In this document: in pieces, positions 5,258-64,000 of the stretch | How positions within the stretch are numbered: position 1 is the first letter of the stretch | Layout: the number at the start of each line of letters is the position of its first letter | DNA from: a virus | Strand: one strand, 5' to 3' | Length of the DNA stretch: 64,000 bases | Virus record (IMG/VR): IMGVR_UViG_3300027969_000039 | Location: 239,058-303,057 of that record | The notes under the pieces: model-generated | The model's input: the letters and a program-made list of their open reading frames with translations, nothing else | What the model was told of the DNA's origin: nothing | Databases searched by the model: none | Translations under genes and position numbers: made by a program

Positions 5258-14287
<9,030 letters not shown>

Positions 14288-45138: not shown

Positions 45139-46244
45139 ATCGTCCTCTTTGGCAATTTACTATCGGCACTACTTACACATGAATTACTTATACAAATCAT
45201 AGGCTTATCGAATAATTTGAATCCAGTCTCTATGTTTCCCAGTGGAGTATCAGTGCAACTATAACTACGCTTGATACTACCATCTGGTTCTCTGATGATT
45301 ATGCCTTGAAATCCACTATTACATTCCCAACCTTTAAAATTGTTGAACCCGAACGCATTGAATCGTTCTGCTTGATCCATGTACCATTTCTTACCGTATT
45401 TATCAGTGAATTCTACTTGCATGTGTGCAGGCACACTACTATCATTTTCTCCTGCCATGTGAGGAGGAACTTCAAATTTAGCTTTTGGTCTATCATTCCA
45501 TACACGCTTCTTTTCAGTATAAGCACGTTGCGGCATACCATTATGTAACTGTTTCATCTGTTCTTCAGTATACCCACTGACTACAAAATTAGCAGTAGGA
45601 TCGCTCTGCGGTTTCAACGTGACATTGATTCCTTGATTGTGGAAGAACAATGCATTCTCGTAGTCTTTATCAAACCATGCGGGAACCATTACCATGTTGA
45701 TGGTTATCTGTACATCATGTTCTTGACAGAATATCAGTTTATCTGCAAAGTCTTGCATCTTCTCAATCGTGTCAAGATGCTCTGTGTGTAGACTCGCCGT
45801 GATGCTAGCACGATGAAATTTCTTAGCATGTTCTACATATGTCTCAAACCATTTCATATTCCTAGAACAGTTACTGGTCATATGTATGCTAGTGTAATTA
45901 GTATTGTCTACATCATTCGCTAGATACTTTAGTATGTCTAGATATCCAGGATGAAACGTAGGTTCACCACCACTTAGACTAAAATGAAAACTATTAAATC
46001 CATTAAGTCTAGCTTGAGATTTTATCTCATCTATAGTACTTAAGCATAACTCTGTAGGTCTATGGTCTTTCGTATCACTACGGGCATAAGGCCAGCAATA
46101 GCTACATTTGTAGTTACAAAATCTACCTAGCAACCAACTGACGGTGAATAGGTCACGATACAATAAAGTTCGTTGGCCTACTTGCACTATATCTTTAAAT
46201 GGGATTTTAGTGAAATCATAATCACTGTATTTTAAATCAGTCAT
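45135..46244 (-). CDS. Radical SAM protein with C-terminal Cys-rich (SPASM-like) part (369 aa)
   Basis: The radical SAM motif CNYKCSYC (C43, C47, C50) follows SWLLGRF; the SAM-binding GGEP motif is present as LSGGEPTFHPG. C-terminal Cys residues (WECNSGFQG, SYSCTD, CISNSC) probably hold an auxiliary cluster. The pattern is closer to organelle-type rSAM enzymes with SPASM/twitch ends than to QueE. It overlaps the PP-loop gene by 4 bases downstream and the upstream gene by 4, so the three are made together. Confidence 0.88.
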   Translation of the reverse strand: MTDLKYSDYDFTKIPFKDIVQVGQRTLLYRDLFTVSWLLGRFCNYKCSYCWPYARSDTKDHRPTELCLSTIDEIKSQARLNGFNSFHFSLSGGEPTFHPGYLDILKYLANDVDNTNYTSIHMTSNCSRNMKWFETYVEHAKKFHRASITASLHTEHLDTIEKMQDFADKLIFCQEHDVQITINMVMVPAWFDKDYENALFFHNQGINVTLKPQSDPTANFVVSGYTEEQMKQLHNGMPQRAYTEKKRVWNDRPKAKFEVPPHMAGENDSSVPAHMQVEFTDKYGKKWYMDQAERFNAFGFNNFKGWECNSGFQGIIIREPDGSIKRSYSCTDTPLGNIETGFKLFDKPMICISNSCVSSADSKLPKRTI

Positions 46245-47185
46245 AATATATATGGGGCCACATTAAATCCATGTTTGGACAATAACGACAAATTCTTTTT
46301 GTGCCAAACAATCAATTCATCATTAAATGATGAATCATAGTCAATATCAAATATTTCTTCTAAATATCCTTTAATAAAGATTTTAGAATAATCAATAATA
46401 GTAACTCCTCTTTCTTTTAATGCTGGGATTTGAAAATTTGAATAGGCTTCAAAATTTCCCATTATTTTATAAAAATACTTATTATATAAATCAAACGGAG
46501 TTGAATTAAAAATTTCATTAAAGGTAATGTTTTTATCATATTTCATATATGCAATTACGTCTAACTGCATTCCGTACATAATCGTTATGTTATTTTTTAT
46601 AACCCAATCTAGTCCATTGTTTAACAAGCTAGACAATTCAGCGTCATTTATATACCTACTACGGTCATGCTCAAAAAATTTAATTTTATCATTCTCTTTA
46701 AGGCAGATATGTTTAACTGCTAAATCTTTTATAAATAATAAACTTCCTGCATAAGTATACCATTTTTCATTATCAGCACATATCAAATAAGTATTTTCTT
46801 TAGTAAAGTATGAATTTGATAAAATATTGCATCTAAACAAAGGTGGCTTGTGATCTTGTTTTAAATAAACAATAGCCTCATTTACTTTGTCTTTTATGTT
46901 ATACCCTAAAAAATCATTTTTAGTTTTTATGACATTGATTAAATCAGTAATTGATGAATTGTAAGTAAGGTTGCAATGATATACTAAATGAAAAAAATAT
47001 GGCAATCTGACTAAAGTTCTATTTTCTGAAGTTACAATAACTTGAGTAGAAACATTATTCCTAAATTTTTTAGTATGTGTCGAGATTAAATTAGTTAAAA
47101 ATTCACCACCTGCCCCTCCACCATACATGAGATAGTATATTGGATAATTGCATAATGCTTCTAAAATTAGTTCATCATCATTCAT
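46241..47185 (-). CDS. Unknown protein with GGGAGG-type N-terminal loop (314 aa)
   Basis: The start chosen is ATG 47185, which overlaps the upstream stop (ATGA) and has GGAG six bases before it; an ATG 4 codons earlier is less likely. The N-terminus IYYLMYGGGAGGEFLTNLIS could be a phosphate-binding loop. The end, VTIIDYSKIFIKGYLEEIFDI...WHKKNLSLL, is reminiscent of sulphotransferase C-terminal regions. Several aromatic residues lie between. Same plan as the gene at 42044. The sulphotransferase idea is weak. Confidence 0.45.
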   Translation of the reverse strand: MNDDELILEALCNYPIYYLMYGGGAGGEFLTNLISTHTKKFRNNVSTQVIVTSENRTLVRLPYFFHLVYHCNLTYNSSITDLINVIKTKNDFLGYNIKDKVNEAIVYLKQDHKPPLFRCNILSNSYFTKENTYLICADNEKWYTYAGSLLFIKDLAVKHICLKENDKIKFFEHDRSRYINDAELSSLLNNGLDWVIKNNITIMYGMQLDVIAYMKYDKNITFNEIFNSTPFDLYNKYFYKIMGNFEAYSNFQIPALKERGVTIIDYSKIFIKGYLEEIFDIDYDSSFNDELIVWHKKNLSLLSKHGFNVAPYIL

Positions 47186-48471
47186 ATATAGCTCCATGTT
47201 TTTATTAAAGTAGAAACAAATGGAAAAATATTAATCCAATCTTGTTTTTGATTTATAGCTAACCGATTAAATACTCCTACTAATTGTTTTCGTGTTTCAT
47301 TGAGCAACGATTCAGACATTATCATACGAGATGAGGTACAATACTTCTCATAAGAATCAAGTTTTTTTAATATTTTTTTGTCCCCGTTAGCTTTGTTTTT
47401 TACAATATCAAATATAGTATTCTGTTGCCGTTCATCAAGTAAATTGATATTGAAAAATGCTGGGTTATATACTAAATGACTAGTACCAGGATTTTCTATG
47501 TCTCTGTTTATCTTCTTATAGTTTTGCTTCTTTATCCATATCATTAAGTCAGAGTAATGTTCCAGTGTTAATATACTTACTGTAGTAGAAGTGAACACAG
47601 TAATGTTTTCCGCAGATTCATCCAACATTTTTAAATTTTGTTCAATAGTTTCCCATTTTGAAGGGTAACGAACAGCATCGTTAGCAATTCCATACGCATC
47701 TACACTAGCGCAAATTCTAATCACTTTGAATTTTTTCCACATGTCAAACAACAACGGAGGGAATACAGTTAAGTTCACGCTATATTCTAACTCAATGTTT
47801 TTTGCGTAACCTTCTTCTATCAACCTATTCAATAGATAATGATGGTACTTAATTATTAATGGTTCACCGCCACCGAACTTAATCTTGTTTAAATATTTTG
47901 AATTTTCGATTAATGCATCTATCTTATCTTTGTCATTGGCCCAATCAAAGTCGCTATCAGCTAATTTCAGATTGTAAATCTTGTCATCTACAATAAAATG
48001 ATCATGTCCAGTTATCTCTTGATAATCTTTATACCATAAGGTAGATTCACCGGGAAAACACATTACACATCGTAGATTACATTGATTTCCTATCCTAAGG
48101 TCTAGTGAAACTAACTTTGAATTAGTTATCGTACCGTCGACGGTCGTGCTGTTGATAGCATCATCAATAGTAAATGTATCTAAATGTCTTTTAGTTTCCC
48201 AATCGTTTCTGCTGTTACTTCCCGTACTAGTATCAACCTCACACCGCTTGCATTGTTCTGGCCACACCCCATTTAATATATCTTTGCGTACTTGCTTAAG
48301 TGTGTCACAATTTAATACATTGTCTATGTTAGCTAAACTATCTGCTTTCAATGTCACTTTATCTTTGGACAGCACGGTATTTTCATTACTACCACTTTGA
48401 CTATGGGAACACATACGGAGTGTTCCGTTATTTTTAATTGCGACATGAGTCCAAGGTAAAGGGCACCACAT
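47182..48471 (-). CDS. Radical SAM protein with N-terminal twitch-like Cys region (429 aa)
   Basis: The N-terminus MWCPLPWTHVAIKNNGTLRMCSHSQ (split as C3, C21) and CKRC (C74, C77) form the Cys-rich region that precedes the rSAM core in this group. The core has CNLRCVMC (C131, C135, C138) and GGGEPL. Residues RICASVDAYG and VRYPSKWETIEQNLK follow, as in its paralogues. The N-terminal Cys set probably binds an extra [4Fe-4S] cluster. First gene behind the minus-strand late promoter at 48492-48499. Only one Cys is seen where paralogues have CC. Confidence 0.88.
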   Translation of the reverse strand: MWCPLPWTHVAIKNNGTLRMCSHSQSGSNENTVLSKDKVTLKADSLANIDNVLNCDTLKQVRKDILNGVWPEQCKRCEVDTSTGSNSRNDWETKRHLDTFTIDDAINSTTVDGTITNSKLVSLDLRIGNQCNLRCVMCFPGESTLWYKDYQEITGHDHFIVDDKIYNLKLADSDFDWANDKDKIDALIENSKYLNKIKFGGGEPLIIKYHHYLLNRLIEEGYAKNIELEYSVNLTVFPPLLFDMWKKFKVIRICASVDAYGIANDAVRYPSKWETIEQNLKMLDESAENITVFTSTTVSILTLEHYSDLMIWIKKQNYKKINRDIENPGTSHLVYNPAFFNINLLDERQQNTIFDIVKNKANGDKKILKKLDSYEKYCTSSRMIMSESLLNETRKQLVGVFNRLAINQKQDWINIFPFVSTLIKTWSYI

Positions 48472-48491
48472 ATATTCTTATTTGTTATTGA

Positions 48492-48499
48492 TATTTATA
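48492..48499 (-). promoter_or_regulatory. T4-type late promoter, exact TATAAATA (minus strand)
   Basis: The plus-strand text TATTTATA is an exact TATAAATA on the minus strand, 20 bases upstream of ATG 48471. Three bases separate it from an exact plus-strand copy, giving a back-to-back divergent pair. Confidence 0.75.
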
Positions 48500-48502
48500 C
48501 AG

Positions 48503-48510
48503 TATAAATA
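48503..48510 (+). promoter_or_regulatory. T4-type late promoter, exact TATAAATA (plus strand)
   Basis: Exact octamer followed by C, ending 17 bases before ATG 48528 of the PLP-enzyme gene. It is the partner of the divergent minus-strand copy. Confidence 0.75.
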
Positions 48511-48527
48511 CGCTGGGAACAATACTT

Positions 48528-49373
48528 ATGCGTGATTCGGAGAATAGACAATATACAAGTGAATGGCTACAACATGAACGCCCTCAACCCATGTACGATT
48601 CATCTATCAACAAACTATATGAATCAGTTTTCTACACCAATCCGGCATACAATGATGATATAGCTAATGAATTCAAAATAGAATTCATACATTTTCTTAA
48701 CAATCATTCACTCAGTAAATTATCAGGTATTGATATGTTCCCTCATACTGATATATGTGTGGGGTGTACCCAATTTATTGATGATATCTATCAGCGTGTA
48801 GGTACCAATGATGTTATGATATTTGAAAATGATTACAAATATCACTGGAGATTGAACAATGACATTGAATATGTTACATTAGATACGCTTGTTCCAAATA
48901 AAGAATTGATAATCTCTATGCCTTTCCCTGCACACGGAGATGTGCATCCATTAATGCATACTATATTAGACCGTTGCGAACAACTAGATATACCCGTGCA
49001 TTTAGACGGTGCATGGATAACTTGTAGTAGAGATATAACATTCAACTTTGATCACCCTGCTATCAAAACTTTTGCTGTAAGTCTAAGCAAAGGTGGAATG
49101 GGCAATGATAGAATAGGTGTACGATTTTCACGCACTAGACCATGTGGAGCGATAACCATAATGAATGACTTTAATATGAATTGCAAAAGCCTGTTACATA
49201 CTGGATTGAAGTTTATGCAAGAGTTAGGTTCTGAATATTTCTGGAAAAAATATGAGACTAGATACTATAAAGTATGTGAAGATTTCAATCTAATACCCAC
49301 TAAATCTATACATGTAGCTAAAACAATGCAAGGAAAAATCGTAGGTATCAGACCTTTGTTGAGATGTTTATAA
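48528..49373 (+). CDS. PLP-dependent enzyme, aminotransferase fold type I, short (281 aa)
   Basis: Residues VHLDGAWITCSRD (D160, the Asp that contacts the PLP ring nitrogen) and VSLSKGGMGNDRIGVRFSR (K188, the Schiff-base Lys, with a downstream Arg) are the fold-type I aminotransferase/decarboxylase signatures. The family is usually about 400 aa; here the C-terminal small domain is mostly missing. It is the only plus-strand gene in the radical SAM block, with its own late promoter, and its 3' end overlaps the convergent rSAM gene by 6 bases. A role in supplying or trimming an amino substrate of the pathway is inferred from location. Confidence 0.7.
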   Translation: MRDSENRQYTSEWLQHERPQPMYDSSINKLYESVFYTNPAYNDDIANEFKIEFIHFLNNHSLSKLSGIDMFPHTDICVGCTQFIDDIYQRVGTNDVMIFENDYKYHWRLNNDIEYVTLDTLVPNKELIISMPFPAHGDVHPLMHTILDRCEQLDIPVHLDGAWITCSRDITFNFDHPAIKTFAVSLSKGGMGNDRIGVRFSRTRPCGAITIMNDFNMNCKSLLHTGLKFMQELGSEYFWKKYETRYYKVCEDFNLIPTKSIHVAKTMQGKIVGIRPLLRCL

Positions 49374-50687
49374 GAAGTATTTCTCTAATGATGGAATTAT
49401 ATCAACTATATCTTGATTACGTTCTTTATCTAAAAACTTAGTATAATTTACAAACTCTGAAAATTGAGTTTCGTGCAGGTCTTCTTGATTCATGTATGTA
49501 AGAATTCCAGTGTATATATCATTTGCACGTTCAATTAACGCACTGTCAATTTCAGATTCATTTAATTTAATCATAGATTCTTTGTATCTAGTTTCTATCT
49601 GAGTTTTTATCTCAGGTGGCAGTACCCTAACATTTAATGACAATGGACGATGTGCTACATGATGTGATATTATAGGACGATTTGACCTTATACTATCTAG
49701 ACCACTTTCAAATATTTTCCATTCAACAAAATCAGCTATATGTAAAGCATTATATGCGGTAACTGTAACGGTCAACCAGCATTTTATATTTGTTTGAGTC
49801 TCTACTAACTTATTTAATTTTTGTAGATTGGGGTATAGTTGACTCCATTTAACAGGCCATCTTTGATATTCGACTACCTTACCAAATCCATCTATACTTA
49901 CTCCTAACTCTACTTGCTTGAATTTTTTCCATAATTCTAATGCTCTTTTGGGTAATGTGGTTCCGTTAGTATTATATTCTAATTTTATATTTTTGGCAAC
50001 ATCCTTGTCTATGCATTTTTGTAAGAACTCGTAGTGCCTCTCTATCATTAATGGTTCGCCTCCTGCCATATAAACATGCCGTATGTTAGCCAAGTTACTC
50101 TCAATTTGTGTCCAAAAATTCTCTGAGTCATGCCAATCATAATCATTAGTAGCAAGTCTGCCTACGCTGTTTCTAATAAGCTGAACTTTTCCGTGTGTAT
50201 CATTAAAGCTATCTTTTCCAGTGTAAGAAGCCCATTGCTCATACCAACTATGACTATCAGTGGGACCGCACATTCTGCAAACTAGATTACATAGATTTCC
50301 AAACCTCATGTCATAAGATATAACCGGAAATTTCTCAATATCAATAGTTCCATCATCACTAGTATCATTTATTACATCATCTAATGACATTTCCCAATCA
50401 GCAATAGCATAATGTCTGTTGCTGGTCAATCCATTGTTTTCTTCTACTGTGCATCTTTTACATTCAGGACTCCATTCACCTACAATCATGTTCTTTCTAA
50501 GACGCTTCATTAACTCTGAATTACGTGATTCATCTAAATTGGCTGTTGCAGCATTAAATGTAGTGCCATCATCTCTGATAAGGATTCCCCTATTAGGACT
50601 TTGATTTGCTTGACAGCAAACGCGAACATCTCCGTTGTTACGGAATGCTTGGTAAACCCAAGGCAAAGGACAAAACGTATCAGACAT
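49368..50687 (-). CDS. Twitch-type radical SAM protein (439 aa)
   Basis: Cys-rich N-terminus: FCPLPW (C6), RVCCQA (C24, C25) and CKRC (C76, C79), preceding the core. The rSAM motif is CNLVCRMC (C133, C137, C140), followed by GPTDSHSWYEQW, YMAGGEPLM and LGVSIDGFG. The end (DIVDIIPSLEKYF) matches that of its paralogues. The large paralogous set here (47182, 49368, 50691, 52932, 54310, more distantly 56462) implies duplication and divergence on related substrates. The upstream paralogue ends 3 bases before its ATG. Confidence 0.9.
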   Translation of the reverse strand: MSDTFCPLPWVYQAFRNNGDVRVCCQANQSPNRGILIRDDGTTFNAATANLDESRNSELMKRLRKNMIVGEWSPECKRCTVEENNGLTSNRHYAIADWEMSLDDVINDTSDDGTIDIEKFPVISYDMRFGNLCNLVCRMCGPTDSHSWYEQWASYTGKDSFNDTHGKVQLIRNSVGRLATNDYDWHDSENFWTQIESNLANIRHVYMAGGEPLMIERHYEFLQKCIDKDVAKNIKLEYNTNGTTLPKRALELWKKFKQVELGVSIDGFGKVVEYQRWPVKWSQLYPNLQKLNKLVETQTNIKCWLTVTVTAYNALHIADFVEWKIFESGLDSIRSNRPIISHHVAHRPLSLNVRVLPPEIKTQIETRYKESMIKLNESEIDSALIERANDIYTGILTYMNQEDLHETQFSEFVNYTKFLDKERNQDIVDIIPSLEKYFL

Positions 50688-50690
50688 AAT

Positions 50691-52016
50691 TTAAGTGCTC
50701 ATTTCTTTTAATAATTTATATGTAATTGGACTAACAATCTCTAATGATTGATCTCTCATTTGATCTAATTTATTAGTTATCTCAAAAAAATTAGTAAGTT
50801 CATGTGACAAATCTTCAGAGTTCATAAATTTTACTGCCCTATCTAGCTCCTTACAAAAAAACTTGTAATTAATTTCTTGTGTTTTTGTATTCATAATTCT
50901 TTCTTTATATGTTACCTTGCATTCTTCAAAATAGTTACTTATAAAAAGTTTACTAGTTAATGGAAAAATTTTAATATTATAACGTGCAGGTCCGTGTAAT
51001 AAATGTGAATCAAATTTTGTATCAGGGAAATTTTCAAATTTCCATAACATTAACTCTGGTAGCTGTAACAGGTTAAAAACCATAATGGTAGGAGATATAA
51101 CTGTTCTAAAATTTCCTTTTGCAGTAGTTAATTTAGACAAGTTATTTTCAATCTGTTTCCATTTACTTGGATATCGTATATAATCATTTAATTCTCCGAC
51201 TCCATCAATACTAGGAGCAATTTGAATCAGTTTAAAATGTTCCCATAGCCCCCATGCTTTTTTAGGTATGTTAGTGAGATTAGTCATTACTTCAATATAA
51301 ATTTGATTAGCATAACCCAATGAAATGCATTTTTCTAAAAAGCTATAATGATTGTCTATTAACAATGGCTCTCCGCCTATAATAAAAATATGCTTAAGAT
51401 TAGGTATATGCTTTTCTAAATTTTTCCAAAATAGTTCTTGTTCATGCCAATTATAAATATCTGTCTCTAGTTTTGCTTTTTCAGTTAAGTTTGTTATAAT
51501 TTTTAATTGATTACCCGATTGATCAGTAAAATAATTATTATTAAATAAAGTAACATGGTCATCATACCAAGCACTGGAATCAGTTGGGCCGCACATTCTA
51601 CATTTAAGATTGCATAGATTACCAAATCTTAAATCTGCATATTTAATGGGTACACTAGTTTCATCTATAGAACCATCTTCATTCGTTCTAGTTACTGCAT
51701 CATTTAATGAAAATTCTTTATTCCAATTCTCAATCATCTGTATTCTATTACTTCTATATCCAGTAGATTCTTCTTTCACGCACCTACTACACATTTTTGG
51801 AGACTCGTTAGCTAGTATAGTTTTTCTTACTTCTTTTAGAATTTTGGAATTTCTAAACGTTTCTAATCCATCTTTGGCTATATTAAAGTTTTCACCGTTG
51901 TCTTTTGTTATTGAACCTTTAGTAATAGAGGAATCTGCTTGACAACAAACTCGTAAATCACCGGTACTCCTAGTGCTTACTCCTATCCACGGCAACGGAC
52001 AATATGTATTAGACAT
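50691..52016 (-). CDS. Twitch-type radical SAM protein (441 aa)
   Basis: The start chosen is ATG 52016, giving MSNTYCPLPW as in its paralogue; a start 7 codons upstream would overlap more of the preceding gene. N-terminal Cys are C6, C24, C25, C76 and C79; the rSAM motif is CNLKCRMC (C135, C139, C142); IIGGEPLL and IAPSIDGVGELNDYIRYPSKW follow. It is the closest relative of the 49368 protein in layout and probably arose by tandem duplication. It overlaps the preceding gene by 8 bases. Confidence 0.9.
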   Translation of the reverse strand: MSNTYCPLPWIGVSTRSTGDLRVCCQADSSITKGSITKDNGENFNIAKDGLETFRNSKILKEVRKTILANESPKMCSRCVKEESTGYRSNRIQMIENWNKEFSLNDAVTRTNEDGSIDETSVPIKYADLRFGNLCNLKCRMCGPTDSSAWYDDHVTLFNNNYFTDQSGNQLKIITNLTEKAKLETDIYNWHEQELFWKNLEKHIPNLKHIFIIGGEPLLIDNHYSFLEKCISLGYANQIYIEVMTNLTNIPKKAWGLWEHFKLIQIAPSIDGVGELNDYIRYPSKWKQIENNLSKLTTAKGNFRTVISPTIMVFNLLQLPELMLWKFENFPDTKFDSHLLHGPARYNIKIFPLTSKLFISNYFEECKVTYKERIMNTKTQEINYKFFCKELDRAVKFMNSEDLSHELTNFFEITNKLDQMRDQSLEIVSPITYKLLKEMST

Positions 52017-52935
52017 AATTAGGAGACCATTTCTCAACTAAAGCATCTTGCTTACAATGACATTCATGTTTATATGTGCAAGTTATGGGTTCTGTTGGTA
52101 AAGTATATCCAGAATAAACATTGCCTATTTTTCCACCTACTCTTGGCCAGCATCTAGATATATCACCATTTGGATCAATTACAAAACGGTCTATTCCTGC
52201 ATTGCATTTCCAATCTGTAAAAATGTTTTTTTGATTCACTACTAAACTGTTCCAATTTGCTTGAACTCCGTTTAAAAAAATATTCTTTGGATATAAATCT
52301 AACCATGTTGGAAAACTAATAATAGAAGTTTTTTTAGGATATGATCGAATGTACTCTAATTGACTTTCAGTATATGGATATAACTCATCGCATATTAAAC
52401 TTTTTCTTACGGGTTTAATATCAATTAATATATCTAATTTTTCAAATTCCTTAATAGCAGTTAACCCTTTTTCCCAATAATCAGGCGTTATCAATAATGA
52501 AACCATTGGGAAACATTTATCTTTCATTATTTTAACAACCTGTACCAAATGCTCAGTGTCCACTTCTTTTGAGTGCCATGAAAACAAAAACATTGAATTG
52601 CTAGACTTAAACTGTTCCCAATATCTGAGAGTCCTAGATCCATTGGTGTTTATTTCAATCACAAGATTTTCATGTGAAACGCTATCCATAAATGCTTGTA
52701 ATTGCGGCCATTGTGTGGGTTCCCCACCTATTATCTCTAAACACACATGTGAGTTTTTTTGTCGTACTTTGTTAATAAAGTTAGCTACAGCTATATAATT
52801 TATATTCCATCTTTCAGAACCATCATTACTATTTGGGTGACAATAATCACATGTATAATTACACACATTATGTGGTTTAAACGATATCATTGCTATGTTT
52901 TTTGGACCAGAATTAGTTAAGTGAATAGGTATCAT
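52009..52935 (-). CDS. Radical SAM protein with C-terminal SPASM-like Cys cluster (308 aa)
   Basis: The core motif CNYTCDYC (C25, C29, C32) follows AMISFKPHN, with EIIGGEPTQWPQ after it. The C-terminal part has WKCNAGIDRFVIDPNGDISRCWP, then CTYKHECHC, the layout of a SPASM/twitch auxiliary cluster site. In plan it resembles the 45135 protein rather than the N-terminal-twitch group. It overlaps neighbours by 4 and 8 bases. Confidence 0.88.
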   Translation of the reverse strand: MIPIHLTNSGPKNIAMISFKPHNVCNYTCDYCHPNSNDGSERWNINYIAVANFINKVRQKNSHVCLEIIGGEPTQWPQLQAFMDSVSHENLVIEINTNGSRTLRYWEQFKSSNSMFLFSWHSKEVDTEHLVQVVKIMKDKCFPMVSLLITPDYWEKGLTAIKEFEKLDILIDIKPVRKSLICDELYPYTESQLEYIRSYPKKTSIISFPTWLDLYPKNIFLNGVQANWNSLVVNQKNIFTDWKCNAGIDRFVIDPNGDISRCWPRVGGKIGNVYSGYTLPTEPITCTYKHECHCKQDALVEKWSPNYV

Positions 52936-54320
52936 TTAAATATATCTTTCATTTCTGGAAAAGTGTCATAAAAATTAGTACCGCGATATCTATCAACCTT
53001 CTCGAGGTAGTCTTTAGTTTCTGGTAATCTCACGCTCCAATCATCGCTTTTCATAAAGCTAATCATACCGCGCAGTCTATCAATACCATAAGACGCAACT
53101 TTCCAATCTTCTTTGGTTACTTTACCTTTGTGCCATGATGGAATACCTAACTCCCAATTTTCTTCCCACCACGGTATGAATTCTTCATACTTGCGTTCGC
53201 ACTCATCTTTGAACCATTTAGGCAATATCTTCACGTTCAAAAATGCAGGCCAATAGACAAAGTGATAGTTGATGCCACCCGCACCGAATGGCCACATATT
53301 TATTTTCTTGAAGTTCTGCTCTAACTTCCATTTTACAAAGTCTGGAATGTAATAAATGTTCAATGCGTTGACTGCACATGCAACAGTTATCTCTACATTG
53401 TCGCTAGTCTGTGTATCTAGTATATGAAATACTTCTTCTGTACGACTCCATTTGCTTGGATAACGTATGTAATCGTTCATCTCATGTATACTGTCTACAC
53501 TATAGTGAAAACGAACAATCTTGAAATGTTTCCATAATTCAAATAAATCTTCACGCCATTCTACTCCGTTACTGTTATAGCGTATCTCCATATCTTTAGC
53601 ATATCCTTGACGGATGCATTCTTCTAAGATATCATAGTGTTCTTCAATGATGAGACTCTCGCCACCTGCAAAATACAATTGCTTCATGTTTGGAATCTGT
53701 TCATAGAACTGTTTCCAAAATACTGGATTATTCTTGTGCCAATTATAGCTGCTTCCGTTTGTACTTCCTTTATTATCCCATTGCCATATCTCTTTTACAT
53801 TCTTATTTTCAATGGTAGGATAGATATTTTGCCATTCTTTAATCCAACCTGAACTGTCATGCGGGCTGCACATGATGCAAGCCAACTGACATTTAGTTCC
53901 AAATCTTAAATCAATATATGCTAATTGAGGTGGTACTTCGCCGTCACTTGTTGTCTCAGCTAATAACTTATCTAAGTCAACTCTTTCTTTCCAATACTTA
54001 GTTTCCCACATGCGTTTGCTGTTATGTCCTGCTCGTTCCTCTTCATAACACTTGCGACAGCTTGGTGGTTCTTCACCGTTCAACATCTGCTTACGCACGT
54101 TCCTCATGTAAGTACTATTCCAACTAGAGACAAAATCACTCACGTTCAGATTATTAGGACGACCTTCTTCATCTTTTAATATGCCTACATTACCACCACC
54201 AATTTTGTCATTAGTGATGCCTACACTACTAGCGTTGGCAGTACAGCATACACGCATCTGCCCATCTGGACGAGTGCTGAGATGTACCCAAGGTAAAATA
54301 CAGAATGTTTTAGAAGTCAT
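52932..54320 (-). CDS. Twitch-type radical SAM protein (462 aa)
   Basis: N-terminal region: FCILPWVHLSTRPDGQMRVCCTA (Cys 7, 25, 26) and CRKC (C88, C91). The rSAM motif is CQLACIMC (C144, C148, C151), then YFAGGESLI, with Ser in place of the usual Pro of GGEP. VRFHYSVDSIHEMNDYIRYPSKW continues the family pattern. The C-terminal third is Trp-rich (PWWEENWELGIPSWHKG). GC content and codon use look somewhat higher than in neighbours. It overlaps the upstream gene by 11 bases. Confidence 0.9.
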   Translation of the reverse strand: MTSKTFCILPWVHLSTRPDGQMRVCCTANASSVGITNDKIGGGNVGILKDEEGRPNNLNVSDFVSSWNSTYMRNVRKQMLNGEEPPSCRKCYEEERAGHNSKRMWETKYWKERVDLDKLLAETTSDGEVPPQLAYIDLRFGTKCQLACIMCSPHDSSGWIKEWQNIYPTIENKNVKEIWQWDNKGSTNGSSYNWHKNNPVFWKQFYEQIPNMKQLYFAGGESLIIEEHYDILEECIRQGYAKDMEIRYNSNGVEWREDLFELWKHFKIVRFHYSVDSIHEMNDYIRYPSKWSRTEEVFHILDTQTSDNVEITVACAVNALNIYYIPDFVKWKLEQNFKKINMWPFGAGGINYHFVYWPAFLNVKILPKWFKDECERKYEEFIPWWEENWELGIPSWHKGKVTKEDWKVASYGIDRLRGMISFMKSDDWSVRLPETKDYLEKVDRYRGTNFYDTFPEMKDIFK

Positions 54321-55503
54321 TTAATTTTATCAGTTCAGGGATAGTTTCCCAAGTGTTTTCATTTCTAAGTTTATCTATTTGTTTAGTTGTTTTGATGAAT
54401 AAATTTAAGTCTTTGAAATTAGAAGGTTTTGATAATTCTGCTAAAGTTTGTTTAAATTCTGAAATTATATTTGTTGAGTATTTATTGTCATATATATTTG
54501 CAAAAGATATAAGGTTATCGGTAATTGTTTTTTTAAATTCATCTGGAAGTACGCTTACGTTGTAATATGCAGGAGCTTCGATTAAATTAATATAAAAATT
54601 ATTCTTTTTAATTATCTTTGAATCAGTTAGATATGTAATAATATTAGGCAATCTACTAACATTTAATACTCCTACTGTTATTCCAATGCCAAATTTAATA
54701 AAATCAAAATTAGATAATTGTTTTAAATTAGATTCAACACTTTTCCATACTGTTCCGTAACGAACTAATTCAGCACGATCTCCAATCTCATCAATACTTG
54801 CCCATACACTTATCTTTTCAGAATTCCACTTGCGCCAATAATCTAGTATGTCTTTTTTTCCATATGTTAACGTAGAACAGTTTGTATTGTATCGTATACG
54901 TACATCAAATTTTTTATGTTCTACTAACATATCTAATATTTGCCAATGTTCAGGCATCAATAAAGGTTCTCCGCCTGCAAAATATATTTCTTCAACATTA
55001 TCAATTTGACTTTCTAAAAAATTAAAATCAATAGGAGTGTTTAATACTTTGTTTTGTTCAGATAACCATTTTAAATTAATTGCATCTTGTGTCCATGCGC
55101 TACTAAATGCAGGTCCGCAACTACGACATTTAAAATTACATAGATTGCTAAATCTAAAATCCCAATACTTCAAATGCATCGTAGAACAAGTTCCGTCAGA
55201 ATTTGTTATATTAGGTATATTTTTTAAAACATCTAAATAAGATTCATTGCGAGAATAACGATTACTTTTTCCGGTAACATCTTCTTTATCAAAACATGAA
55301 CTACATACAGTTGGACGAATGTTATTCATCATCTCACTTCGTAATTTCTTCATATTATCACTGTTCCATATTTCATTGATAGGTTGTGTATTAAGATCAC
55401 CGGCATGGTAATGCGGTTTAATCAAACAACACGGAACTACTTTACCATTTGGTTGAAAGTTTAAATGCACCCACGGAACAACACACAATGTTTTAGAAGT
55501 CAT
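54310..55503 (-). CDS. Twitch-type radical SAM protein (397 aa)
   Basis: It starts MTSKTLCVVPWVHLNFQPNGKVVPCC (Cys 7, 25, 26), nearly the same N-terminal plan as the 52932 protein, then CSSC (C67, C70). The rSAM motif CNFKCRSC (C122, C126, C129) and IYFAGGEPLL follow; ISVWASIDEIGDRAELVRYGTVW is the family strand. Somewhat shorter than its paralogues. It overlaps the detached SPASM-like gene by 11 bases. Confidence 0.9.
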   Translation of the reverse strand: MTSKTLCVVPWVHLNFQPNGKVVPCCLIKPHYHAGDLNTQPINEIWNSDNMKKLRSEMMNNIRPTVCSSCFDKEDVTGKSNRYSRNESYLDVLKNIPNITNSDGTCSTMHLKYWDFRFSNLCNFKCRSCGPAFSSAWTQDAINLKWLSEQNKVLNTPIDFNFLESQIDNVEEIYFAGGEPLLMPEHWQILDMLVEHKKFDVRIRYNTNCSTLTYGKKDILDYWRKWNSEKISVWASIDEIGDRAELVRYGTVWKSVESNLKQLSNFDFIKFGIGITVGVLNVSRLPNIITYLTDSKIIKKNNFYINLIEAPAYYNVSVLPDEFKKTITDNLISFANIYDNKYSTNIISEFKQTLAELSKPSNFKDLNLFIKTTKQIDKLRNENTWETIPELIKLNDF

Positions 55504-55828
55504 TTTTTATTTCTTTAAATGAAATGTTTATACTATCATCTCTTACATCAGACTTATCTATGTTGTCATTTATTTTGTCACTACAAAATTTAGAACAAAC
55601 TGATTTTTCATTTTTCCAACTTTCTTCTATTTTTTTCATAGCTTGACTATTTTTCATTTCAGCTAAAGAATATTTTTTACCATCTAGCTGTTCATATAAA
55701 GGTCCTAAAAATTCTGTCACTTTATTAATATATGGTTCATTTGCTATCCAGCAACATGGAAAATAGAAGCCATGAGCAGAAATATAGTCTGATGTTAATC
55801 CTTTTTTACATCTAGGATAAATTAACAT
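55493..55828 (-). CDS. Detached SPASM-like C-terminal half of a radical SAM protein (111 aa)
   Basis: It contains PRCKKG, then ISAHGFYFPCCWIANEPY and ESWKNEKSVCSKFC. These segments align by eye with the C-terminal part of the 58398 protein (ITAEGLLMPCCWTAGRMY and ESSWKL...VCSQKC). It lacks the rSAM core, which is in the overlapping upstream gene (55812-56456) in another frame. Either a natural split enzyme or the result of one indel. The Cys would hold an auxiliary cluster. Confidence 0.75.
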   Translation of the reverse strand: MLIYPRCKKGLTSDYISAHGFYFPCCWIANEPYINKVTEFLGPLYEQLDGKKYSLAEMKNSQAMKKIEESWKNEKSVCSKFCSDKINDNIDKSDVRDDSINISFKEIKNDF

Positions 55829-56456
55829 AGCGCCTCTGTACTTCTTGCCAATCTATCGTTGGTGTTAATGGATCTTCACTTTCATATCTTACACTTTTTA
55901 CAATGCTAAATTCATGGAATCCTAATTTTCTTGCTAAGTATATACCTTCGTCAATATTGTATTGATTATACTTAAATAAAATCCATTTCCAAATTATTTT
56001 AATATTAGGATTATATTCTACTAAAGTCTTAATACCGTTTTCAATAGTTTCCCACTTGCTATTAACTCTATATAAATGATTGTTGTTTGGTAATCCATCT
56101 ATTGAAAATACAATGTTGTCACGATGGTCAAGTATGCTTGCTGTTTCTTTCCACCAATCGATACTTCTAAATGCACCATTAGTATGCATACCTATACTCA
56201 TGTGGGGATGTGCTGTTCGTATACTAGATATTAATTCGTGAAATTTAGGGTGATATATAGGATCACCGTGATTGCCACACATGACAAACTTCTTTTTTCC
56301 CTCAGCTAATTTTACGGTAGTGTCAATATCACAATCTTCTAATTTAATATTATCAATTGACAATGTTCGCGGGCAATGCGGACATGCTAACGTACACCTA
56401 CTAGTAGGTTCTATGTGTAGTACTCTGTCATCTATCCAAATATCTTCATTATTCAT
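55812..56456 (-). CDS. Radical SAM core protein, N-terminal half of a split enzyme (214 aa)
   Basis: The motif CTLACPHC (C21, C25, C28) follows VLHIEPTSR, and the SAM-binding region reads MCGNHGDPIYHP, matching MCGNLGDPI of the 58398 protein. It ends WQEVQRRYVNLS just where that homologue continues toward its SPASM part. The 17-base overlap with the next gene is the only long out-of-phase overlap in the block apart from the convergent one. Confidence 0.8.
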   Translation of the reverse strand: MNNEDIWIDDRVLHIEPTSRCTLACPHCPRTLSIDNIKLEDCDIDTTVKLAEGKKKFVMCGNHGDPIYHPKFHELISSIRTAHPHMSIGMHTNGAFRSIDWWKETASILDHRDNIVFSIDGLPNNNHLYRVNSKWETIENGIKTLVEYNPNIKIIWKWILFKYNQYNIDEGIYLARKLGFHEFSIVKSVRYESEDPLTPTIDWQEVQRRYVNLS

Positions 56457-56461
56457 GCTAT

Positions 56462-57730
56462 TTAAATAACAAATTCATCTAACCATGGAAATAAAGGTTT
56501 CCAATTTAAATTTCTTCTTCTATCTATATCATCTAGTTGAATTTTTAGTTCTTTTACTAATTCAGGGCAATAAGGTTGATTATTAATAGTATCACGATAT
56601 CCACTAAGTTTTTCTTTGAGATATTCAGATGGTGCAACTGCAATCATCCTGTCAAAATCTTCATCAAAAAACCCATTAGGAAATATATCGGCTCGCAAAT
56701 AAGTCATATAGTCAGCAAAACTAAAAGAAATTTCAATTAGCGAAAGATCATTTGTTGTTCTGATATTGTTATAATAATTAATTTTTTCAATTAATTCTGG
56801 ATATGTTTTTATAGTTAAGTTGCACATAGTAGAATGTACTACTAATTTTATTTTAGGGTATTCTGCTATTAACGTTTTAAAATTTTCTTCCCATTGAATT
56901 AAATCTAAACCATGTCTAACATATTCTTCTTGTGGTCCCCATGCATCAATGCTACAAAATATTCTAAAAGATTTTATATGATTTTTAGTAACTAAATTTT
57001 CTACTTTATCTAATATTTTTCTAAATTTAGTATTTGATACTTTTAAATTTGAAAAAATACTAAAAATTAATTCAGGGCATGGATTTGTTTCAAAAAATTC
57101 TATATTTTGTTCAAACTCAGGTTGAAAAAATGGCTCACCACCTAACAAATTATATTCTCTTATAGACAATGCATTTTTTTCCAACCAAGCCCAATATTTT
57201 TTTACTAATATGGGATAGTCTTTTTTTCTGTCAATATGTTTATCTAACTCTTTTTGTGATTTTAAATTAAATTTAATATCTTCATTTTCCCATACCGTGC
57301 TATATTCTGAATTGCAATAAAGGCAAGCCATGTTACATAAATTATTGAAATATACTTCAACAATAGTTGGCGATACTTTAATAGCTTTATTATTATTTAA
57401 CAATTCAACAGCAGGTTTTACATAGTGTTTGCTAGTAGGATGCACGTTTAAATTTACACTCATCCTATCACTAATGCCACCACTCTTTTCAATTTTTTCG
57501 CAATATTCACATCCTTTGCCGGGCCAACGGCCATCTAACATATCTTTCCTGGTACTTAATTTTAAAGGAGTATTGTGAAAATCTTCAATGTTTTCAACTG
57601 TTATTTCATCGGGGTTTACTCTATGACAACTGTTTGTTTTTTTAGCATATATATTTATTGAACTCCATGAAAATTTCCACACACAAGCCGGTTCCGGCAT
57701 TCCATATATATCTTTAAAATTATTTTTCAT
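56462..57730 (-). CDS. Twitch-type radical SAM protein, divergent (422 aa)
   Basis: ATG 57730 overlaps the PP-loop stop (ATGA) and is preferred over a start 7 codons upstream. N-terminal Cys: C16 in PACVW, C35 in NSCHR, and CEYC (C74, C77). The rSAM motif is CNMACLYC (C132, C136, C139), followed later by NLLGGEPFFQPEF and FRIFCSIDAWGPQEEYVRHG. The N-terminal Cys set lacks the CC pair of its relatives, so its auxiliary cluster may differ. AT-rich codon use. Confidence 0.87.
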   Translation of the reverse strand: MKNNFKDIYGMPEPACVWKFSWSSINIYAKKTNSCHRVNPDEITVENIEDFHNTPLKLSTRKDMLDGRWPGKGCEYCEKIEKSGGISDRMSVNLNVHPTSKHYVKPAVELLNNNKAIKVSPTIVEVYFNNLCNMACLYCNSEYSTVWENEDIKFNLKSQKELDKHIDRKKDYPILVKKYWAWLEKNALSIREYNLLGGEPFFQPEFEQNIEFFETNPCPELIFSIFSNLKVSNTKFRKILDKVENLVTKNHIKSFRIFCSIDAWGPQEEYVRHGLDLIQWEENFKTLIAEYPKIKLVVHSTMCNLTIKTYPELIEKINYYNNIRTTNDLSLIEISFSFADYMTYLRADIFPNGFFDEDFDRMIAVAPSEYLKEKLSGYRDTINNQPYCPELVKELKIQLDDIDRRRNLNWKPLFPWLDEFVI

Positions 57731-58395
57731 ATGAGTCTTCCAAATCCCCATTTTCTTTCATGGCACCACCAGCAAGTTTCACAATGTGGTGTTGACCAAT
57801 CATAAGTCTTAGCTTCGCAACTTTTAGTGATTGGAAATAATGTATCCATCAAGTTAAAATGATTATATAATTCTGCTATTCCTTTTTTATCTAAATTAGC
57901 AAAAGGTCTATAACATCTAGGTCCCGGCATAACTGATTTTATTTCTTCTGTGCGGTCTCTCCTAAAATCTCTCTCGTCTATCACAGCTTCATTAAATGAA
58001 TTGCACACTTCAGGTGGTGGATTGCAATTAATACCAGTGACATGGCAATCAATAATTTCATTTTTATACGCTCCTTCAGTCAGTATATCTTGTGCATCTT
58101 GTAATTCGGGTCCTTCCATTACAGGATCACAATGTAAATGTTCACTAAATTTGATATCAAATTCTTTCTCACAAAATTCTATTACTCTTTTACTAAAAAT
58201 AAATTGATAAGGTTTTAAAATATTGACCGCAGTTATAGGATGTATACTGATTTCTGGTCTTTCAGTTACTTTATACTTCGATAGTATATAGCAGATCATG
58301 GCGCTATCTGCGCCGCCTGAGATTTTAATTCCCACTTTATTGAATTGTGGATCTATAGTAAAATCTATATCCTGTTGAGAATTTTTGATAAACAT
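57727..58395 (-). CDS. QueC-like PP-loop ATPase, second paralogue (222 aa)
   Basis: SGGADSA at residues 26-32 is the ATP-pyrophosphatase loop. The C-terminal set C193, C205, C208, C211 (SC...HCETCWWC) followed by KWGFGRL matches the first paralogue at 44503 and resembles the QueC zinc site. VTGINCNPPPEV in the middle corresponds to AGLTANPPKDI of the paralogue. It follows a radical SAM gene after 2 bases, repeating the rSAM-PP-loop pairing. Confidence 0.77.
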   Translation of the reverse strand: MFIKNSQQDIDFTIDPQFNKVGIKISGGADSAMICYILSKYKVTERPEISIHPITAVNILKPYQFIFSKRVIEFCEKEFDIKFSEHLHCDPVMEGPELQDAQDILTEGAYKNEIIDCHVTGINCNPPPEVCNSFNEAVIDERDFRRDRTEEIKSVMPGPRCYRPFANLDKKGIAELYNHFNLMDTLFPITKSCEAKTYDWSTPHCETCWWCHERKWGFGRLI

Positions 58396-58397
58396 GA

Positions 58398-59483
58398 TTA
58401 CTTAAATTGTTCTGTGAATACATCAAACTCTGTGCCGCATTTTTGTGAACACACTTCTAATTTCCCTGCTGCTACACTAGATAATTTCCAACTTGATTCT
58501 ATTTTTGAAAATAATTTACTATTGTCAATAACATCACTCAAATCGTTGTTGATAACATCGATGCCTTTTTTACCGCCTGTATTATCAATTATGTGCCAAA
58601 TTTGTTCTATTCTGTAATCTTCATGCCACCATTTATACATTCTACCTGCTGTCCAGCAGCAAGGCATAAGCAGTCCTTCGGCAGTGATAAAAATATTACC
58701 TTCTTTAACAACCTTACAATCTATTTTACAACTGTCATAGTATTTAGTCATGCTCCCGTGTTGAGCAATTAATTCTTGTTCTTTGGATAAAACACGATTT
58801 TGAAATTCTTCTTTAGGTTTTTTAAGCAATATAGTTTCCGTGCCTTTCCGATTTTGTGCTTGATGTTCTTCTTTTCCTTGATTTCTTGCAGTGCTAAAAA
58901 ATCTAGCAGTTTTCTTTTTAGTAAATTTTTCACATCCCCACTCATTTGCTAACTTTTCGGCTTCTTCCACTTGATGTTGATTGTGTTCAAATATGATATA
59001 ATCCCATCTTGCTCTGCCACCTGCATTGATAAAACTACGCATACTGTTTTCTACTATACTCCATTTAACATTTTGGCGATATAGATGATTAGTATCTACT
59101 AACCCATCCACAGAGAATATTACAGCACCTTTGTTGTTGTATATCTTGGCTAATTCTGTCCACCAATCAGTATCTCTAGCCCCTGCGTTAGTATTCATAC
59201 TGAGCCACATGTTTGCATTATGTTCTCTAAAATATCGAAATACTTCTAGTGTATCTCTAGCAACTATTGGATCACCTAAATTACCGCACATGTACATTGT
59301 GTCTAGCTGACTAATAAATTTTGTGGAGAATATCTTTTTGCAATCATCTAAAGATAGTTCAGCATTGGTGATGTGTTTATTATCTTTGCCACCGTTCTCG
59401 TTGCGGTCACACATTGGACATGCTGCTTGACATAACTGTGTTATCTCTAAATGAACTTTCTTTATATCTTTTGATTTATACAT
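58398..59483 (-). CDS. Radical SAM protein with SPASM-like domain (361 aa)
   Basis: The motif CQAACPMC (C18, C22, C25) follows KVHLEITQL, with YMCGNLGDPI in place of GGEP, and IFSVDGLVDTNHLYRQNVKW. The C-terminus has DSCKIDCKVV, then ITAEGLLMPCCWTAGRMY and VCSQKCG, an auxiliary cluster region. It is the intact relative of the split pair at 55493/55812. Its start overlaps the methyltransferase-like gene stop by one base. Confidence 0.9.
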   Translation of the reverse strand: MYKSKDIKKVHLEITQLCQAACPMCDRNENGGKDNKHITNAELSLDDCKKIFSTKFISQLDTMYMCGNLGDPIVARDTLEVFRYFREHNANMWLSMNTNAGARDTDWWTELAKIYNNKGAVIFSVDGLVDTNHLYRQNVKWSIVENSMRSFINAGGRARWDYIIFEHNQHQVEEAEKLANEWGCEKFTKKKTARFFSTARNQGKEEHQAQNRKGTETILLKKPKEEFQNRVLSKEQELIAQHGSMTKYYDSCKIDCKVVKEGNIFITAEGLLMPCCWTAGRMYKWWHEDYRIEQIWHIIDNTGGKKGIDVINNDLSDVIDNSKLFSKIESSWKLSSVAAGKLEVCSQKCGTEFDVFTEQFK

Positions 59484-62411: not shown

Positions 62412-62487
62412 TGGGGTGTCGCCTAGTGGCCTAAGGCAACGGTCTTTGAAATCGTCATCATGGGTTCGAATCCCATCTCCCCTGCCA
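62412..62487 (+). tRNA. tRNA-Gln (TTG)
   Basis: Cloverleaf with anticodon loop CTTTGAA (anticodon TTG), T-arm ATGGG-TTCGAAT-CCCAT, discriminator G and encoded CCA. The first pair is U1-U72, comparable to the weak U1-A72 of tRNA-Gln. Confidence 0.88.
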
Positions 62488-62494
62488 AATTTAT

Positions 62495-62573
62495 TCCGTA
62501 GAATCCGAGCATGGTGCACGGACTTGACTGTTAATCAATGACTAGCTGGGATCATTACCCAGATACGGAGCCA
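62495..62573 (+). tRNA. tRNA-Asn (GTT)
   Basis: Loop CTGTTAA gives anticodon GTT; T-arm CTGGG-ATCATTA-CCCAG; acceptor TCCGTA pairs with TACGGA; CCA is encoded. Confidence 0.85.
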
Positions 62574-62658: not shown

Positions 62659-62716
62659 AGGATAGCAACAGCAAATCAAAAAAACTTTCAACGTTTATGA
62701 AAAAAAATGCTATCCT
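62659..62716 (+). repeat. AGGATAG...CTATCCT inverted-repeat element, copy 1
   Basis: AGGATAGCA (62659-62667) pairs exactly with TGCTATCCT (62708-62716). The inner part is A-rich with a TTTCA/TGAAA hairpin. CAGCAAAT occurs at 62669, the same position relative to the left arm as in copy 2 at 62888. It may be an RNA-processing or termination signal, or a remnant of a lost tRNA-like insert. Confidence 0.7.
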
Positions 62717-62887: not shown

Positions 62888-62998
62888 AGGATAGGTTCAG
62901 CAAATAATTTAACTACTACTCTGTAAAAGTAAAGGAACGGTTCGACTCCGTAGCCGCAAGGTTTGGTGTAACGGTAGCACTATGTTAAAAACTATCCT
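62888..62998 (+). tRNA. tRNA-Tyr-like element in circularly permuted order
   Basis: Inside an AGGATAG/CTATCCT repeat (62888-62894, 62992-62998) and an inner TTTAAC/GTTAAA pair (62908-62913, 62984-62989), the tRNA parts occur in permuted order. First comes an anticodon loop CTGTAAA (GTA, Tyr; 62921-62927) with TACT/AGTA stem, then T-arm ACGG-TTCGACT-CCGT (62937-62951), then AGCC-GCAA-GGTT, a 4-bp acceptor-like stem closed by a GNRA tetraloop. After two spacer bases follows D-arm GTGT-AACGGTA-GCAC (62966-62980). No CCA end is encoded. It may be a permuted tRNA precursor, a tRNA mimic or a decayed gene. Confidence 0.45.
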
Positions 62999-63008
62999 GT
63001 TATTTTAT

Positions 63009-63083
63009 ATTCCGTGAGGCAGCTGGCGTGGCCGATAGTCCTTCAAACTATTGAGATGGGATCAAAACCCATACGGAATACCA
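63009..63083 (+). tRNA. tRNA-Glu (TTC by position), loop with C33
   Basis: Perfect acceptor ATTCCGT/ACGGAAT and anticodon stem ATAGT/ACTAT around loop CCTTCAA; anticodon TTC by position, but base 33 is C. T-arm ATGGG-ATCAAAA-CCCAT and encoded CCA are normal. Confidence 0.78.
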
Positions 63084-63089
63084 ATCAAT

Positions 63090-63170: not shown

Positions 63171-63244
63171 GCTCTTTTAGTATAAAGGTATTATAATACA
63201 TTGGTAATGTATAGACGCTGGATCGTTACCAGCAAGGAGCACCA
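63171..63244 (+). tRNA. tRNA-Thr (GGT)
   Basis: Acceptor GCTCTTT/AAGGAGC, perfect anticodon stem ATACA/TGTAT with loop TTGGTAA (GGT), T-arm GCTGG-ATCGTTA-CCAGC, CCA encoded. Its CCA is the first part of the next inverted-repeat arm. Confidence 0.9.
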
Positions 63245-63340
63245 TATAAGAACACACTGCTTGCCTGACTGCAAAAGTCGTGGTAAACTACAAGAGAAAG
63301 GGGTTCAAATCCCCGGGACTGGTAGTGTGTTTCTATATGG
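63242..63340 (+). other. tRNA-like element inside a 17-base inverted repeat
   Basis: Arms 63242-63258 and 63324-63340 are complementary except at two positions. Inside are a T-arm GGGG-TTCAAAT-CCCC (63300-63314), a hairpin GTGG-TAAA-CTAC, and a TGAC/GTCG stem with loop TGCAAAA; no regular D-arm is found. The inner part of the arms (ACACACT/AGTGTGT) could serve as an acceptor stem, but CCA is absent and 9 extra bases follow the T-arm. Candidate degenerate or rearranged tRNA (Cys- or Leu-like); identity not resolved. Confidence 0.4.
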
Positions 63341-63414
63341 TAATATAGCATAGTGGCTAATGCAACTGCTTCATACGCAGTCTATCGTTGGTTCGAGTCC
63401 AACTATTACCACCA
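63339..63414 (+). tRNA. tRNA-Met (CAT)
   Basis: Perfect acceptor GGTAATA/TATTACC, anticodon stem ACTGC/GCAGT with loop TTCATAC (CAT), CCA encoded. Could alternatively be a lysidine-modified Ile tRNA. Confidence 0.9.
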
Positions 63415-63963: not shown

Positions 63964-64000
63964 GCCCCGCTGGACAAATCTGGCAAAGTCGCTTCTCTCA
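63964..64000 (+). tRNA. tRNA, 5' part only (cut by window end)
   Basis: Acceptor-like GCCCCGC, then D-arm GAC/GTC with a long D-loop containing GG, and the beginning of an anticodon arm. Counting from the D-arm, the anticodon would begin CA (Leu or Met or Val). Confidence 0.55.

Follow-up and report, generated by a model that had tools for sequence, protein, structure and literature searches.

The window analyzed here is the final 64 kb of a virus record of 303,057 bp. It carries a tRNA-Tyr-like element (positions 62888-62998) in which the 3′ half of the tRNA is encoded ahead of the 5′ half, the order expected of a permuted tRNA gene. Comparison across phages shows that this element is one of a conserved family of RNAs that share a fixed cap and are placed on the tRNA strand within tRNA arrays; as judged from these sequence alignments, the structure, the family, the conserved cap and the array location are common to the members and the anticodon is variable. 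We regard the existence of the RNA as near certain; its function we infer. Among the products of the record are a T4-type gp23 capsid protein and a Terminase_6N domain, and the virus is therefore a tailed phage; the element sits within a tRNA gene array that starts at 62412.

Anatomy and covariation of the permuted element

The initial annotation had described a circularly permuted tRNA-Tyr-like gene without CCA, and all of the parts that it named are present (the repeats AGGATAG/CTATCCT and TTTAAC/GTTAAA, the GTA anticodon arm, the T arm, the GCAA loop and the D arm; Table 1). From 5′ to 3′, the order is terminal helix, anticodon arm, T arm, GCAA-closed stem, U8-G9, D arm and terminal helix. 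The tRNA-like spacing of two bases between acceptor and D stem is likewise there, as the TG that precedes the D arm, and the sequence contains no CCA.

Table 1. Features of the permuted element and of a second, short family member in the window
Feature	Positions	Strand	Remark
Entire element, permuted tRNA-Tyr-like (CAGCAA-capped family)	62888..62998	+	full-length match to covariance model R1
P1 5′ strand of terminal helix, AGGATAG	62888..62894	+	pairs with 62992-62998
Conserved motif CAGCAA	62898..62903	+	first base is position 11 from P1 start; enriched over scrambled motifs
P2 5′ strand, TTTAAC	62908..62913	+	pairs with 62984-62989
Anticodon stem-loop, TACT-CTGTAAA-AGTA	62917..62931	+	anticodon GTA (Tyr) at 62923-62925
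T arm, ACGG-TTCGACT-CCGT	62937..62951	+	read from sequence
Acceptor-like stem, AGCC/GGTT	62952..62963	+	closed by GNRA tetraloop GCAA, 62956-62959; without CCA
D arm, GTG-TAACGGTAG-CAC	62966..62980	+	after two-base U8-G9 spacing (TG)
P2 3′ strand, GTTAAA	62984..62989	+	read from sequence
P1 3′ strand, CTATCCT, then GTT	62992..62998	+	read from sequence
Second family member, short form, AGGATAGCA..CAGCAA..TGCTATCCT	62659..62716	+	around 5-bp hairpin with 7-nt loop (TTTCA-ACGTTTA-TGAAA)

Standard searches do not recover this element. ARAGORN did not report it as a tRNA, and a search of Rfam at the gathering threshold returned ordinary tRNAs only. Rotation of the element to the normal order gave no ARAGORN tRNA; the rotated form has only 4 acceptor pairs in place of a 7-bp acceptor stem with CCA. 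Similarly, single-sequence folding does not single it out (fold z-score of -0.41), and the permuted tRNA fold has a predicted energy of -16.2 kcal/mol versus -22.3 for the minimum free energy structure.

The structure is instead apparent from covariation. We aligned 15 permuted elements from other phages, picked for being alike in length and having the anticodon loop intact, and imposed on them the permuted tRNA structure together with P1; 98.6% of 420 cells were paired, as against 35-43% when the structures were slid by 1-3 columns. Two-sided changes were present in 19 of 28 pairs (shuffled mean, 9.0) and in 66 cells (shuffled mean, 16.3), and none of 500 shuffles scored as high. All seven acceptor pairs of the alignment show two-sided changes, which marks the closed acceptor stem as a genuine helix in the RNA. 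A covariance model (R1) built from this alignment, with the window excluded, aligned end to end with exactly positions 62888-62998 and scored 44.4 bits (E = 2e-8, a rough value, for 244 kb searched); the comparative evidence thus confirms that the permuted tRNA-Tyr-like arrangement is real. The model also found permuted elements in the arrays of cultured phages, including one each at 75.5, 65.5, 63.2 and 56.1 bits; ordinary neighboring tRNAs gave mostly partial matches of at most 36.9 bits, and a full-length match of 39.4 bits fell on two adjacent, ordinary-looking tRNAs without a cap (L437:14083-14191). The expectation that the arrangement would recur in related phages is thus borne out in many phages, with strong covariation, but not at the same spot in two relatives (L005 and L006) that are described below. 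In homologues of the window element, the loop of the acceptor stem is GCAA or GAAA, and five homologues of the window type (L068, L096, L121, L132 and L183) carry Ser TGA (loop CTTGAAA) where the window has Tyr GTA. Because its acceptor stem has 4 bp and the CCA is absent, the window RNA, sealed by a GNRA loop, is very probably not chargeable.

A family of capped elements in phage tRNA arrays

The initial annotation overlooked that the AGGATAG cap recurs, both at 62659-62716 of the window and in many other phages. Members of the resulting family have a terminal helix of 7-10 bp, the 5′ strand of which starts exactly 10 nt ahead of CAGCAA, and a G after the 3′ strand of the helix, usually as CTGT. 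Both window elements have a P1 of at least 7 bp that starts 10 nt before CAGCAA and is followed by G, and both lie in the tRNA array; the short one has C, not U, at loop position 33.

To delimit the family we scanned IMG/VR with two patterns. A T loop followed too closely by a D loop gave at least 120 rows; among the matches listed, 72 of 125 contexts were not readable as two ordinary tRNAs and many shared the terminal helix and the CAGCAA motif. The cap plus a T loop likewise gave at least 120 rows, versus 13 for a scrambled motif. Across 429 loci (4.09 Mb) there were 423 CAGCAA elements with a helix of at least 7 bp in the exact 10-nt register, 309 of them then followed by G, compared with 58-112 elements and 11-25 followed by G for eight scrambles of the motif; T loops lay inside 138 CAGCAA elements versus 2-8 for the scrambles. 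The cap and T-loop loci had been fetched with the P1 5′ strand, the motif and the T loop in the pattern, the 3′ strand and the G lying outside it, and the loci of the T-loop and D-loop scan, chosen without the motif, together with six further loci gave 64 of the 309 elements. After omission of the 114 of 423 elements that lack the following G, and of those in bacterial genome contigs and control loci (294 of 309 kept), near-duplicates were removed to leave 190 of the 294 as representatives. These lie at a median distance of 10.5 nt from a tRNA: 164 share the strand of their nearest tRNA, 2 are on the opposite strand and the other 24 are more than 2 kb from any tRNA. A scan of bacterial genome contigs gave matches that were mostly chance. 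A real case is L393, which is binned as Marinifilum, carries 17 tRNAs and is probably a phage contig; near position 7377 of its reverse strand a capped element contains a T arm and an acceptor end with CCA, which a long intervening stretch separates from the matching 5′ acceptor strand and the P1 3′ strand.

Members are also found in cultured phages. BLAST of the window element against these gave nothing useful, and no homologues of two window proteins were found in named phages; however, BLAST with single elements from other loci led to Stenotrophomonas phage vB_SmaS-DLP_6 (KU682439.2) and to Klebsiella phages KP13-26, KP13-16, KP2025 and phi1_175008. Four cultured-phage arrays contain 17 capped elements, all of them on the same strand as the tRNAs; with 59 other permutations of the CAGCAA letters, the same arrays gave 0.46 elements on average and 3 at most. 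Permuted elements include one that reads Ser GCT in KP13-26 and, in its KP13-16 counterpart, Thr GGT, as well as, in DLP_6 (L437:15177-15319), a permuted tRNA-Arg(CCT) with an encoded CCA and an intervening sequence. Unlike the window element, this last one is recognized by ARAGORN as a tRNA once joined in the rotated order. In a separate observation, an annotated 432-nt tRNA-Arg-TCT of PP919962.1 (140087-140518; L436:4088-4519) overlaps a DUF2828 gene and is probably an annotation error.

The content held by the cap is diverse. A loose parser assigned 66 of the 190 representatives to the permuted form (T arm, then D arm), 8 to a normal order with the cap replacing the acceptor stem, 22 to forms with a T arm and no D arm, and 58 short and 36 long elements to forms without a T arm. 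A strict parser, which requires an anticodon arm, a T arm, perfect acceptor pairing and a D arm, passed 23 of the 96 representatives that reach 100 nt or more, versus 1 of 1920 shuffled interiors in which the T loop was kept. A canonical anticodon stem-loop is present in 26 of 63 short representatives, versus 2.7% of shuffled interiors, and lacking in the other 37 of 63. A long capped class without tRNA (116-170 nt; L175, L200, L209, L213, L217, L227 and L267), which has a conserved GAGTTTCG..CTC hairpin and AAACAAAAAG, is apparently a further structured RNA.

The anticodons vary within this frame: one body type bears ACG, TAG, GGA, GAA, GTA and GCG, and related elements differ by one base, TCT versus TTT. 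U36 occurs in 32 of 50 representative stem-loops, versus 357 of 1004 ARAGORN tRNAs (p = 7e-5), and A or U at this position in 45 of 50 versus 568 of 1004 (p = 6e-7), both p values being optimistic since the elements are partly related by descent; the tRNAs were counted in the loci of a larger, 103-element set. The A/U-rich anticodons could come in part from AT-rich mutation. We also considered an excess of anticodon changes in near-identical pairs (13 of 89 differences over 21 pairs) and rejected it, disjoint pairs giving 3 observed versus 1.83 expected (p = 0.28).

Searches of the open-licence PMC literature brought up no description of permuted or CAGCAA-capped tRNA-like RNAs from phages, which is weak evidence of absence, and the large family of capped phage tRNA mimics is apparently undescribed. 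The initial annotation had placed the novelty in one compact permuted tRNA. The permuted form stands, but what is new is the whole capped family, which also spans lone anticodon stem-loops, normal-order tRNAs and insert-bearing tRNA genes.

Related arrays and insert-bearing tRNA genes

Three loci (L002, L003 and L007) contain the same element as the window, next to a gene that is 100% identical in protein. The contigs of these loci and of the window (end at 64000) all stop inside the tRNA array, and the array is therefore incomplete. Two further loci, L005 and L006, have the same array next to a protein that is 81% identical, and there the capped spacer between tRNA-Ile and tRNA-Glu has the same flanks as in the window and other content. 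Between tRNA-Gly and tRNA-Ile, where the window has a gap of only about 7 nt, L005 and L006 encode a normal-order tRNA-Tyr(GTA) with CCA. This gene has an insert between the D arm and the anticodon arm that carries the P1/CAGCAA module, closed by a GACA loop (..TTATTCT-GACA-AGAATAAGTTCTGCAA..). The window element and the gene of its relatives are therefore two circular permutants of one architecture; read from their sequences, the acceptor is open and P1 closed in the relatives, and P1 is open and the acceptor closed in the window.

Several other features of the window were noted in passing. An 18-nt inverted repeat closes the spacer between tRNA-Thr and tRNA-Met (63241-63341; z = -6.8), which has three hairpins, among them a T-arm-like one (GGGGTTCAAATCCCC); the spacer is outside the CAGCAA register, is near-identical in L006 and has other content within the same closing repeat in L005. 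A probable tRNA-Asn(GTT) at 62494-62573 and a probable tRNA-Glu(TTC) at 63009-63085, both read by eye, have T loops that start ATC, not TTC, and were missed by ARAGORN and by Rfam at the gathering score. Several adjacent radical SAM genes lie within 45135-59483 on the minus strand.

Inserts of the kind seen in L005 and L006 interrupt other normal-order tRNA genes too. The module closed by a short G-initial loop (mostly GNNA) gave 23 matches across loci L001-L297, of which 17 were in tRNA context, versus 0 of 17 for seven scrambled motifs, tRNA context being a simple test for D-loop and T-loop patterns on the two sides of the module. In the seven genes with exons readable by eye, where the inserts are 40-54 nt, ARAGORN found a tRNA in 7 of 7 when the insert was removed (Tyr, His, Asp, Arg, Pro, Arg and Ser) and in 0 of 7 when it was kept. 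Six of the seven are broken at 27/28, 28/29 or 29/30, the Ser case being ambiguous, and the bases on either side of the break complete the anticodon stem. Furthermore, 14 of 71 permuted elements take at least 2 anticodon-stem bases from the D-arm side, versus 2.5 on average and no more than 7 over 200 swaps.

Candidate functions and relation to known systems

The initial annotation had suggested, among other possibilities, a decoy or a mimic, which we judge a good guess; its interpretation as a whole is partly supported. The leading explanation, which we hold at about even odds, is that the window element is an anticodon-specific tRNA-Tyr mimic, a decoy or competitive inhibitor mounted on the conserved cap. 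Such a small structured RNA, possibly circular, would derive from the phage's own tRNA array and would be transcribed and stable; P1 and the CAGCAA bulge would form the cap that ends it, presenting a tRNA-Tyr body with an acceptor cut to 4 bp and sealed by the GNRA tetraloop. Resembling tRNA-Tyr in its anticodon, T and D arms and presumably escaping charging, it might compete for host factors that bind tRNAs or attack them (anticodon nucleases, for example), and more generally for factors that recognize tRNA-Tyr, and phages would swap cassettes and anticodons within the conserved frame. In some members, however, the cap breaks the anticodon stem or loop, and these are therefore a poor fit to a plain anticodon decoy. 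The 37 short representatives that have no canonical stem-loop, and the C at loop position 33 of the window's short element, also speak against this reading. In other relatives CCA or entire tRNA exons are retained, an indication that the family may in part yield working tRNA.

An intron-like origin of the cap, which could hold together with a decoy role, is possible, if on balance doubtful. The cap would be a very small intron-like module that is cut from the anticodon arm in normal-order tRNA genes; in permuted genes the same cut would join the far ends into a circular RNA, opened to a tRNA where CCA is encoded and left as a closed circular tRNA mimic where, as in the window, the acceptor is sealed. 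For the insert form this is anatomically well supported on sequence grounds, given the tRNA context of the modules, the tRNAs obtained from the joined flanks (and likewise from the permuted Arg(CCT) of DLP_6) and the completion of the anticodon stem by bases from both sides in the permuted elements as well. The anticodon stem could, however, also form around a retained side arm, short forms without tRNA exons are left unexplained, and the rotated window element is not found as a tRNA. There is no bulge-helix-bulge (as read from the sequence, the P1 and P2 of the window element are parted by 13 nt and 2 nt), the module is too small for a group I or group II intron, and among 13 large records RtcB is encoded in 1 and T4 Rnl1 in 2, neither being in the window's record. 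If the insert is an intron, we know of no machinery in bacteria for one of its kind. More tentative still is the full form of the proposal, namely an undescribed tiny phage tRNA intron (about 40-54 nt, P1 plus CAGCAA) with its own removal independent of bulge-helix-bulge, which in a tRNA gene would restore the tRNA and which, inside out as a natural permuted intron-exon arrangement, would release circular tRNA-shaped RNAs, some of them sealed, unchargeable, exonuclease-proof decoys against tRNA-targeting immunity. Capped elements lie between tRNA genes on the same strand and at the median distance given above, and several have no tRNA part, as would be expected of processing or spacing hairpins of a long tRNA precursor with incidental contents; yet the tRNA parts covary and keep tRNA-specific spacing, U33 anticodon loops on a canonical stem are far above chance, and in the window array many adjacent tRNAs are not separated by an element of this kind, which makes this account improbable. 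That the window element is a real permuted tRNA-Tyr gene, matured to a chargeable tRNA as in red algae and some archaea, would fit the order of parts, the U8-G9 spacing and the normal-order tRNA-Tyr of the relatives, none being reported by ARAGORN or Rfam in the window array, an absence that counts only for the part of the array before the contig end. The 4 acceptor pairs without CCA, the GNRA seal, the lack of a bulge-helix-bulge and the lack of an ARAGORN tRNA upon rotation make it very unlikely. Least credible of all are unselected fragments of tandem tRNAs left by recombination, since all helices covary, the register of P1 to motif is rigid and many phages share the elements, even though arrays are shuffled between relatives and some acceptor loops retain ACCA, as from a tandem tRNA junction.

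The window element and its family have partial parallels in other RNAs. YrlA, a bacterial Y RNA (RF02553), is a tRNA mimic with a permuted arrangement of T arm, closed acceptor stem and D arm. This permuted T-acceptor-D core recurs in the phage elements, whereas these have an anticodon arm and differ in the terminal domain. RF02553 gave sub-threshold matches to some family members (for example, L102 at 44.7 bits against a gathering score of 69) and no match on 62888-62998 down to an E of 10, and no TROVE/Ro60 gene was found in the window's 303-kb record, which may be incomplete. Separately, the viral contig at L077:3814-3908 has a YrlA-like sub-threshold match of 44.3 bits. A role as competitive inhibitor has been suggested for the tRNA-like domain of YrlA in PMC7790460.

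Permuted tRNA genes are known from Cyanidioschyzon, other algae and Thermofilum and are defined by a bulge-helix-bulge junction, as described in PMC3978253. The likeness to the phage elements lies in a 3′ half placed ahead of the 5′ half and in a break that may fall in the anticodon arm, and the Arg CCT relative of DLP_6 has both a CCA and an intervening sequence. The phage element differs in its 4-bp closed acceptor stem without CCA or bulge-helix-bulge, and in that the phage P1 and CAGCAA cap is common to non-permuted and tRNA-less members. The dictyostelid Class I RNA (RF01414), as presented in PMC7919456, resembles the phage short forms in its length of about 60 nt and has a short terminal stem, a CAGCAA in the same register and a CTGT 3′ end. 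Each of the 22 virus records has a match to RF01414 at E ≤ 1, the best at 39.6 bits (E = 3.1e-8), and 62659-62716 scores 21.6 bits; none reaches the gathering score of 41.5. Of 14 control genomes, 7 likewise have a match at E ≤ 1, again below that score. Class I RNA is reported in PMC7919456 as unique to social amoebae, the phage members come from phages and many contain tRNA parts, and the likeness is one of layout that does not imply a common origin.

Phage tRNAs are described as counters to tRNA-cleaving defences, with tRNA-Tyr acting against retron-Eco7 and Septu (PMC11555353, PMC13096335) and tRNA-Tyr or tRNA-Lys from tRNA-rich regions acting against PtuAB, Septu, PrrC or PARIS (PMC11555353, PMC13096335, PMC11455837). 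In those accounts, such tRNAs differ from the window element in having the normal order and in supplying or replacing the cleaved tRNA. Cas13a, for its part, is described in PMC11042736 as cutting tRNAs with uridine-rich anticodons.

The capped elements, which tRNA finders and Rfam miss, would constitute a novel class of noncoding viral RNA, made up of tRNA mimics that sit on a conserved cap in several circular permutations within phage tRNA arrays, and a bacterial-virus counterpart to permuted tRNA genes; their likeness to the dictyostelid Class I RNA is a separate puzzle. With members in cultured Klebsiella and Stenotrophomonas phages, the family is directly testable, and it bears on why phages hold large tRNA arrays and on their contest with tRNA-cleaving immunity.
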